Translations under genes and position numbers: made by a program | Shown: piece by piece, positions 1 to 63,998 of the stretch | Position numbering within the stretch: position 1 is the stretch's first letter | Layout of the letters: each line of letters starts with the position of its first letter | Origin: Methanoculleus sediminis | GTDB lineage: Archaea; Halobacteriota; Methanomicrobia; Methanomicrobiales; Methanoculleaceae | Direction: 5' to 3' | Assembly (NCBI RefSeq): GCF_001017125.1 | Contig: NZ_JXOJ01000001.1 | Coordinates: 204,133-268,132, forward strand | Length of the DNA: 64,000 nucleotides | Notes under the pieces: model-generated | What the model saw: only the letters and a program-made list of their open reading frames with translations | Databases searched by the model: none | Told to the model about the DNA's origin: nothing

Positions 1-90
1 GACTGTCGGGACGACAGGAGTTCGAGCACCGCAGGTGCGACTCGCGACTGTCGGGACGACAGGAGTTCGAGCACCGCAGGTGCGACTCGC
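1..90. repeat. Tandem duplication of a 45-bp two-hairpin unit
   Basis: Two identical 45-bp units lie head to tail at 1-45 and 46-90. Each holds two short hairpins with three-base loops: CTGTCG-gga-CGACAG at 3-17 and GCACC-gca-GGTGC at 26-38 in the first unit. The same architecture recurs in degenerate form elsewhere in the window. There are no spacers, so it is not a CRISPR array. The left edge of the window cuts the array, so the true copy number is unknown. Confidence 0.9.
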
Positions 91-470
91 GATGTTCGAC
101 TCATAAGATCGAATGGCGTTCGAGCACCCGAAGGGTGGGAGGAGCAGGTGCAGGTGGTGTCGTGAATTGACGATGGGGGGAGAGGATACAGCCTCACGCG
201 AAGCCGCGAAGCGCGACTGGCCGAAGGGCAGGAGCGTGAGCACCGAAGGTGCGAAAGACGACTTTCCCGAAGGGTGCGACGTTCCAGAGAACGACTGTCT
301 GTAGGACAGGAGTTTGAGAAGACCGGAGGTCTTCGAGGAACGGAGCATGAGCACCGCCAGGTGCGGGAAAGGAGTTCGAGCACCGCAGGTGCGGAGAACG
401 CGAAGTTCGGCCGATTGCTGGCGGTAGTCCCCTTCGCGGCTTCGCGTTCTTCGCGTGAGGTAATGCGGTG
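91..470. repeat. Degenerate array of triloop hairpin repeats, no gene
   Basis: This intergenic stretch is packed with short inverted repeats of the family seen at 1-90. Clear members are CACCC-gaa-GGGTG (125-137), GCACC-gaa-GGTGC (240-252), CTGTC-tgtag-GACAG (295-309), GAAGACC-gga-GGTCTTC (318-334), GCACC-gcca-GGTGC (351-364) and GCACC-gca-GGTGC (380-392). A GCGAAGC-type motif near 190-215 and 430-460 reappears near 32490-32520. Small open frames here (starting near 113 and 274) simply translate the repeats and are not credible genes. Confidence 0.8.
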
Positions 471-16041: not shown

Positions 16042-16190
16042 CGGACATCGCACCTTCGGTGCTCCAGCTCCGTTCCTGCCGGAACGTCGCTTATCGCCAC
16101 GCACTGCCCCCGCCCCCGGGGCGGGGTGCGACGGGCTGTAGGACCGGAGCATGAGCACCGAAGGTGCGGAGGAGGAGCGCGAAGCGCGGG
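16042..16190. repeat. Triloop hairpin repeats in the intergenic region 15913-16422
   Basis: Members of the hairpin family lie in both orientations. In inverted orientation are GCACC-ttc-GGTGC (16050-16062; loop gaa on the minus strand) and CGTTCC-tgcc-GGAACG (16071-16086). In forward orientation are GCACC-gaa-GGTGC (16155-16167) and GCGC-gaa-GCGC (16177-16187). The rest of the 510-bp gap (to 16422) has no credible gene; it contains only a G/C-rich stretch at about 16220-16275. Confidence 0.75.
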
Positions 16191-16422
16191 TGGGGTGGGG
16201 GTTACAGACATTCATTCCGACGTGGAGACAGGGGAGGGGGGATGCTCCCCCCTCCCCGTCAGCCCCACCCCCACGTGGCGATAGCCACCACGGTCCACTG
16301 TATTGGGACTCTCTTGTCTCAACAGGTCTATTGGCGATCAACAGCACTGCAGTATTCTCAACCATCACTGTAGGTTCACTGGCTCCTCAAACCCCGGCCG
16401 GGTACAGCCCAAAACCCTCTCC

Positions 16423-25223: not shown

Positions 25224-25298
25224 TCATGCACCTCCGATAGATATACTATGTTAAGTCCAGAAAAGAGTCCTTTAACTGACTAATCTCTGTAATCCCGA

Positions 25299-25450
25299 GC
25301 CCTTGCGGGCAGTGCTTCCGGGAGCACGTCGGACTTACCATAGCCAGCACGTATTCGTGCTGCATCATATTCTCCGGGAGGAATCTTAAGGGTATCGTAT
25401 GGGTTGCGCGGCCCGCGCCCCCTTCCGGCGACAGGGGGGCGGGTGGGCCG
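25299..25450. other. Hairpin-dense noncoding stretch, possible structured RNA
   Basis: The gap between rps15 and tRNA-Gly has four perfect or near-perfect stems: GCCC-ttgc-GGGC (25299-25310), GTGCT-tccggg-AGCAC (25312-25327), AGCACG-tatt-CGTGCT (25346-25361), and a long G/C stem that pairs CGGCCC (25409-25414) with GGGCCG (25445-25450) and encloses runs of C and G. No reading frame is credible. It could be an RNA gene or overlapping terminators; I could not match it to a known RNA family. Strand is not determined. Confidence 0.5.
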
Positions 25451-32299: not shown

Positions 32300-32530
32300 T
32301 TTGCGCATCCTATTATCGGCTCACGCGGAGACGCGAAGAATAGTTGATGAGTGTTCCAGTCCCCTTCGCGTCTTTCGCGCGAGGCCGTATCGTTATCTCC
32401 ACAATCCACTCACGCGAAGACCGGTTGACAGGTAGGGTAACGCTCCTTCACACCTAACGGTGCTCATGCTCCTGCCATTCTGGCAGTCGCACTTCGCGGC
32501 TTCGCGCTCTTCGCGTGAGGCCGTGCCGTC
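32300..32530. repeat. Intergenic repeats of the triloop hairpin family and GCGAAG elements
   Basis: Between the nucleotidyltransferase and the Cas4-like gene lie TTCGCG-type repeats (32316-32330, 32360-32385, 32489-32520), the last nearly identical to 430-459. Two hairpins in inverted orientation are CTGCCA-ttc-TGGCAG (32472-32486) and CACC-taac-GGTG (32451-32462). No gene is supported in this interval. Confidence 0.7.
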
Positions 32531-52986: not shown

Positions 52987-53081
52987 GGTATATCACCGGG
53001 GGAAGGATATGGGAGGTACTATATAAATCTTGATGTACCCGCCATCCGGGGAGCGCGGGGAGACCGTTGCAGGGGGAGTGC

Positions 53082-53250
53082 GAGCACGAGCGAACGTGAG
53101 CACCCGTCAGGTGCGAGTTGCGACGGTTCGTTAGAAACGACTTCCCCGCAGGGTGCGACGGGCCGTAGGGTGCGACTGCCGGAACGGCAGGAGCATGAGA
53201 AAACACGAAGCGTTTTCGGGGCCGGAGCTTGAGCCCCGCAGGGGAAGAGA
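53082..53250. repeat. Triloop hairpin repeats between the channel-like and RND genes
   Basis: Members of the hairpin family, forward orientation: GCACC-cgtca-GGTGC (53100-53114), CTGCCG-gaa-CGGCAG (53176-53190), GAAAACAC-gaa-GCGTTTTC (53199-53217, one mismatch) and CCCC-gca-GGGG (53234-53244). No gene lies between 52987 and 53281. Confidence 0.75.
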
Positions 53251-63978: not shown

Positions 63979-63998
63979 CGATCTTACGAAGGAGATCG
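63979..63998. repeat. Right-edge triloop-hairpin element
   Basis: CGATCT (63979-63984) pairs with AGATCG (63993-63998) around a cgaa-containing loop, resembling the hairpin family in other intergenic spaces. The window ends here, so its context is cut. No gene is seen between 63800 and 64000. Confidence 0.4.

Follow-up and report, generated by a model that had tools for sequence, protein, structure and literature searches.

A two-hairpin unit of 41–47 nt, abundant, recently mobile and conserved at the fold level in Methanoculleus

The 64,000-nt stretch of the Methanoculleus sediminis genome analysed here (the window) carries copies of a two-hairpin element that is abundant, recently mobile and conserved at the level of the fold, and whose architecture is novel. 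The family is probably a very small non-autonomous mobile DNA (41–47 nt plus a 3–4-nt target), single units of which would be pasted in by a putative enzyme that acts in trans and recognises the folded hairpins. Of the mobile DNA units known from cellular chromosomes, this would be one of the smallest; its architecture is readable at the single-base level, and many natural pairs of occupied and empty sites are available. No description of the two-hairpin unit was found in the openly accessible literature searched; parts of the phenomenon have been seen earlier without recognition, as G-quadruplex repeats and probably as satellites of Methanoculleus marisnigri.

Build, copies and fold of the unit

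The unit reads NNC–GA–stem 1–loop–stem 1′–GA–GNN–N–GA–stem 2–loop–stem 2′, and a typical copy, folded as either DNA or RNA, forms two adjacent hairpins. Hairpin 1 (H1) comprises an inner stem of ~6 bp, tandem G·A/A·G and a 3-bp outer helix, in which NNC:GNN pairing spans the tandem G·A mismatches that bracket stem 1. One linker nucleotide separates it from hairpin 2 (H2), which has a stem of 5–8 bp with GA flanks. A preliminary description of the window had noted hairpins, often in pairs, with a GGAG spacer. The pairing stands, with both hairpins forming one mobile unit rather than independent elements, and the spacer is in reality the G·A/GNN portion of the third helix, which had escaped that reading. 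The conserved flanks are NNC-GA and GA-GNN (CGA/GAG), a GTAG or CGTC tag was not found as a conserved flank, the ends (left NNCGAC, right GGTGC) are not mutual inverted repeats, and the consensus lacks four G-runs. The core GAGNNNGAGCACCGNAGGTGCG, allowing at most two mismatches, matched the window's own genome (G000; 15 contigs totalling 2.49 Mb) at 120 places, 61 in forward and 59 in reverse orientation; the reversed control pattern matched once. Inspection of the flanking genes placed the units, which are short, palindromic, dispersed and high-copy, in intergenic DNA.

A covariance model, R1, was built from family units, including those of the window, and used to search the genome and its relatives. 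Within the window, it matched four of the five places proposed earlier (1–470, 16050–16167, 32450–32491 and 53073–53245), the best copies with E values of 1e-16 to 1e-8. The fifth, a hairpin at 63979–63998, was rejected as a family member, having a large loop and no unit grammar; it adjoins a tRNA. The copies are as follows:

1–38, plus strand: unit with its 5′ end cut by the window start; H1 CTGTCG-GGA-CGACAG, H2 GCACC-GCA-GGTGC
43–83, plus strand: second tandem copy of the preceding unit; period 45, i.e. unit + 4 nt
86–138, plus strand: degenerate unit; H2 CACCC-GAA-GGGTG, by direct reading
212–252, plus strand: unit; outer helix CGC/GCG, H1 CTGGCC-GAA-GGGCAG, H2 GCACC-GAA-GGTGC
257–392, plus strand: outermost unit in a nest of three levels; 5′ half 257–274 (GAC-GA-CTTTCCC-GAA-GGG), 3′ half 365–392 (GGG-AAAG-GA-GTT-C-GA-H2), with GGG duplicated at 272–274 and 365–367
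275–364, plus strand: middle unit, inside H1 of the outer unit; 5′ half 275–289, 3′ half from ~335–338 to 364, H2 GCACC-GCCA-GGTGC
290–334, plus strand: inner unit, inside H1 of the middle unit; outer helix AAC/GTT, H1 CTGTCT-GTA-GGACAG, H2 GAAGACC-GGA-GGTCTTC
16050–16091, minus strand: unit; AGC/GCT, H1 CGTTCC-GGCA-GGAACG, H2 GCACC-GAA-GGTGC
16127–16167, plus strand: unit; TGC/GCA, H1 CGGGCT-GTA-GGACCG, H2 GCACC-GAA-GGTGC
32450–32491, minus strand: unit; TGC/GCA, H1 CTGCCA-GAA-TGGCAG, H2 GCACC-GTTA-GGTGT; its intergenic region is mostly missing from most relatives
53073–53114, plus strand: degenerate unit; H2 GCACC-CGTCA-GGTGC
53171–53217, plus strand: unit; TGC/GCA, H1 CTGCCG-GAA-CGGCAG, H2 GAAAACAC-GAA-GCGTTTTC, with one mismatch in a stem previously listed among those with kept pairing
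53217–53245, plus strand: degenerate 3′ half; H2 CCCC-GCA-GGGG, a weak match (E 0.4)

The hairpin cluster at 1–470 is thus real, part of it being the nest of units within each other's H1.

Pairing is maintained while the arms change, as had been claimed, and paired changes exceed those in shuffled sequence, the comparison named at the time. Covariation of stem 1 reached 0.414 versus 0.143 ± 0.013 after shuffling, with six of six H1 pairs changing on both sides; in an alignment of 74 units, chosen without H1 pairing as a requirement, covariation was 0.407 versus 0.165 ± 0.011, and slid versions scored 0.10 or less. When H1 arms were exchanged among units, ~7 perfect stems were expected versus 70 observed, and inner pairing was 0.56 (maximum 0.59) versus 0.82. 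The outer helix alone gave 0.503 versus 0.259 ± 0.027 shuffled, and all three NNC/GNN pairs were present in 170 of 310 distinct units compared with 80 (maximum 103) after shuffling, chiefly as AAC/GTT, TGC/GCA, CGC/GCG and AGC/GCT. The 5-bp H2 is nearly always GCACC, so that this class contributes little or no covariation; other H2 stem classes vary (GAAGACC, GAAGCC, GAAACCC, GAAAACGC, CCACC and others).

Taken descriptively, since the units are related by copying and are not independent events, the loop and pair counts among 209 family units gave GNA in 136 of 150 H2 triloops and GNNA in 50 of 59 H2 tetraloops, always with C–G closure, GNA in 113 of 153 H1 triloops, and C–G closure in 55 of 56 H1 tetraloops. 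The triloop rule proposed earlier holds in copies elsewhere for the dominant GNA class and has to be extended to tetraloops, which account for roughly one loop in four and obey GNNA. The third base of GNNA was a pyrimidine (GNYA) in 74 cases and a purine (GNRA) in 15. Stable DNA motifs include d(GNA) triloops with a CG closing pair (PMC5815330) and d(cGNNAg) (Nakano 2002); the unit loops fit both, and their GNYA bias runs opposite to the GNRA rule of RNA. Non-Watson–Crick pairs on the GNA strand were G·T in 58 instances versus A·C in 17, as expected if this strand is the one that folds. From these sequence patterns, we infer that the units fold as single-stranded DNA, a fold that movement may require. 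Selection on the fold, suggested previously, is likely because of the covariation and the strand-specific G·T wobble bias, and gene conversion could contribute. The units offer a test of natural selection on the stability of DNA-specific loops, d(GNA) and d(cGNNAg).

Across genomes, R1 matched 33 of 35 Methanoculleus assemblies, with 70 matches at E ≤ 0.01 in a genome of another genus of the family (G038); elsewhere in the Methanomicrobiales, isolated genomes hold from one to a few copies each. Some outlying matches, on short contigs of metagenome-assembled genomes (MAGs), may reflect contamination. Exact-pattern matches in named genomes were, among those listed, nearly all from Methanoculleus or Methanomicrobiales MAGs. 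Contig DXJM01000434.1, assigned to a Lokiarchaeota MAG, has a genuine unit and is very likely contamination, probably a misbinned Methanoculleus contig. A viral or plasmid carrier was discarded: two IMG/VR matches and one Fimbriimonadaceae match were chance cores without H1, and there was no plasmid match.

Occupied and empty sites

Orthologous intergenic regions were compared over ~400 kb from each of five genomes, together with other loci, and were found to differ by whole units. Both units at 16050–16167 are missing from the orthologous site of one relative (G004), and at the same locus in another (G009) a third unit interrupts a G/C-rich repeat. An exact empty site in a related genome was identified for 71 non-tandem units. 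The inserted DNA consists of one unit, from NNC through the end of stem 2, plus extra bases, which numbered 4 nt at 42 sites, 3 nt at 25, 5 nt at three and 6 nt at one, with none at 0–2, so that 3–4 nt were added at 67 of the 71. They tend to repeat the last bases of the left flank (on average 2.54 of 4 positions versus 2.01 permuted; 2.13 of 3 versus 1.64), a similarity equalled in none of 2000 permutations. Plain examples have GAAG on both sides of the unit at G000:296673 and G000:175099, and GGAG at G007:698366, a clean insertion with 100% identical flanks. The extra 3–4 nt are read as a putative short target duplication of partial identity; as the match to the left flank is only partial, some of these bases may be element sequence.

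The target is G-R-R-R, with RRRR at 35 of 43 sites versus 2–16 at shifted positions; cGNA motifs are likewise enriched, and most target sites fall in already repetitive DNA. The target was no more prone to form hairpins than neighbouring positions were, and the notion that the target must itself be a hairpin was dropped, since stems at the insertion point were no commoner than at shifted positions. Templating of the arms from the target by snap-back copying, suggested by G004:518675, was also rejected, as that site lies inside the moeA coding sequence and shows ordinary protein variation. G004:518675 and G011:689748 hold a chance look-alike of the unit in moeA, with an in-frame 36-nt difference in protein length.

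Among the non-redundant empty sites, 14 of 43 correspond to a hairpin of an older unit, whose loop or 3′ arm is often entered, giving nests; three levels were read directly at window positions 257–392. An AnBn array, in which 5′ halves are followed by 3′ halves, lies at ~371.9 kb of contig C1 in G000, with (4,2) halves, and at ~547 kb of C1 in G008, with (7,5), the 5′ halves exceeding the 3′ halves by two in both species. Each side has gained three halves, as repeated insertion into the innermost loop predicts, whereas tandem duplication of a whole unit would give (AB)n, unlike the array observed. Ordinary tandem arrays also occur, with a period of unit + 4, and at G008:C1:222468–223453 more than 20 tandem 47-nt units stand where G000 has one copy.

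Proposed mechanism and rival explanations

Units gained singly, with 3–4 extra bases and at purine-rich targets, argue for very small non-autonomous mobile DNA. The putative enzyme would act in trans on the folded hairpins and not on a fixed stem sequence, and such recognition would let the arms drift through compensatory change. It would make a short staggered cut in the target and paste in one unit, and the hairpins would probably form either as a cruciform or on DNA made single-stranded in replication or repair. A broader proposal, which we advance only tentatively, is that the units represent a new class of mobile DNA defined by fold and not by sequence: the mover would read two single-stranded DNA hairpins through their G·A-flanked stems and GNA-type loops, the stems would change by compensation, and insertion into purine-rich loops of older copies would produce the nests. 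The units test whether fold alone suffices for the recognition of mobile DNA.

The main rival, which we consider unlikely, is an artefact of replication or repair without dedicated transposition: units would spread as repeats recombine, slip and switch templates, and quasi-palindrome correction or gene conversion would preserve the perfect arms. It is compatible with the tandem arrays, the mosaics and the plasticity of repeat-rich regions, and with the landing of most insertions in older repeats. It accords poorly, however, with complete single units that have fixed ends and a consistent 3–4-nt addition at many sites, or with the clean insertion described above. The loop rule and the strand bias of the G·T intermediates also suggest that a single folded strand is under selection.

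Functional RNA hairpins, acting as 3′ untranslated, attenuator or processing signals, had been offered as a possible explanation and are very improbable: although the units also fold strongly as RNA, are intergenic and at two of the four window loci sit between converging genes, the tetraloops are GNYA and not GNRA, the two orientations are equally represented, no Rfam family was matched, and presence varies at the same gene pair among close relatives.

The other earlier suggestion, a REP-like family, holds as far as short, palindromic, dispersed, intergenic, high-copy and mobile elements are meant. As a REP/REPIN moved by a RAYT, a Y1 HUH single-strand transposase, the family could be accommodated by its more than 100 copies and its strand-specific hairpin. 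This explanation is largely refuted and keeps a slim chance at best, because insertions bring 3–4-nt duplications, the conserved flanks are neither GTAG nor CGTC, and the search for a RAYT-like transposase (Y1_Tnp, PF01797) gave 0 matches in G000, the domain being absent from the copy-rich complete genomes and from nearly all copy-rich relatives. Matches in 7 of 35 genus genomes came mostly from unit-poor ones, such as G034 (19 matches), G012 and G031. The unit-poor genomes are G012, G014, G020–G024, G031 and G034, while G000, G008, G009 and G027 are rich in units.

Least probable is that a reverse transcriptase copies the units through RNA, the route proposed for the double hairpins of Allomyces mitochondria, which are similar in architecture (PMC2800124), given the absence of RVT_1 from G000 and its presence in only 3 of 35 relatives, the DNA-type loops and the short target duplications. 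With regard to other candidate movers, IS110 is absent from G000, and Cas1 is present in nearly all genus genomes and is therefore uninformative, pointing to neither association nor exclusion.

Neighbouring repeats and known systems

Recurrent G-quadruplex sequences (rPQS) of Methanomicrobiaceae, motifs of four G-runs accompanied by a C-rich tract (PMC8044849), occur in the same genus and intergenic places as the units, which lie inside or beside them (16067–16290) but, unlike them, are not G4 motifs; one clean unit insertion sits between an rPQS G-run and C-run. Window positions 16067–16290 form a larger composite with inverted TATCGCCACG / CGTGGCGATA ends that contains the rPQS G4/C-rich repeat, resembles a MITE and serves as an insertion hotspot for units. 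It adjoins a DEAD-box helicase gene, and rPQS lie beside such a gene in 9 of 12 organisms (PMC8044849). The published account of 45- and 51-nt satellites in M. marisnigri treats them purely as tandem repeats and gives no structure, dispersal or mobility (PMC6749651); judging from the period of unit + 4 nt, they are probably tandem arrays of two-hairpin units. A separate dispersed repeat of GCGAAG / CTTCGC runs (CTCACGCGAAG...) occupies 180–215, 395–465 and 32318–32530; it contains the d(GCGAAGC) mini-hairpin motif, and units insert after GCGAAG. An S15-Methanomicrobia ribosomal protein leader (Rfam RF03137) lies at 25289–25361.

The units resemble REP/REPIN–RAYT systems as high-copy short intergenic palindromes and depart from them in the lack of a Y1 transposase and of a GTAG/CGTC flank and in the target duplication. 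With MITEs they share a target-site duplication, albeit of partial identity; their left and right ends do not form the terminal inverted repeats of a MITE, and the survey of resident transposons covered three families.

Closest in behaviour is the yeast mitochondrial GC42 cluster, followed by the mitochondrial double-hairpin elements. The latter, namely the Allomyces double-hairpin and sponge repetitive hairpin elements, consist of two neighbouring hairpins and are mobile, with no known function (PMC2800124). Here too, two adjacent hairpins make up the mobile unit, but those of Allomyces lack flanking duplications, whereas our units carry short ones. Yeast GC42 clusters are ~42 nt long, palindromic, dispersed and polymorphic, undergo merging and shuffling, and have flanking direct repeats of 2–3 nt (AG/ACT) and an unidentified mover (PMC4478555). 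The likeness, a palindromic unit of ~42 nt bounded by short direct repeats, is one of behaviour, with no sequence relation claimed. In contrast to these fungal mitochondrial clusters, the units reside on archaeal chromosomal contigs, have two hairpins with a covarying stem 1, GNA/GNNA loops and tandem G·A, and use a 3–4-nt purine target. They provide a tractable prokaryotic counterpart to the yeast mitochondrial GC clusters.
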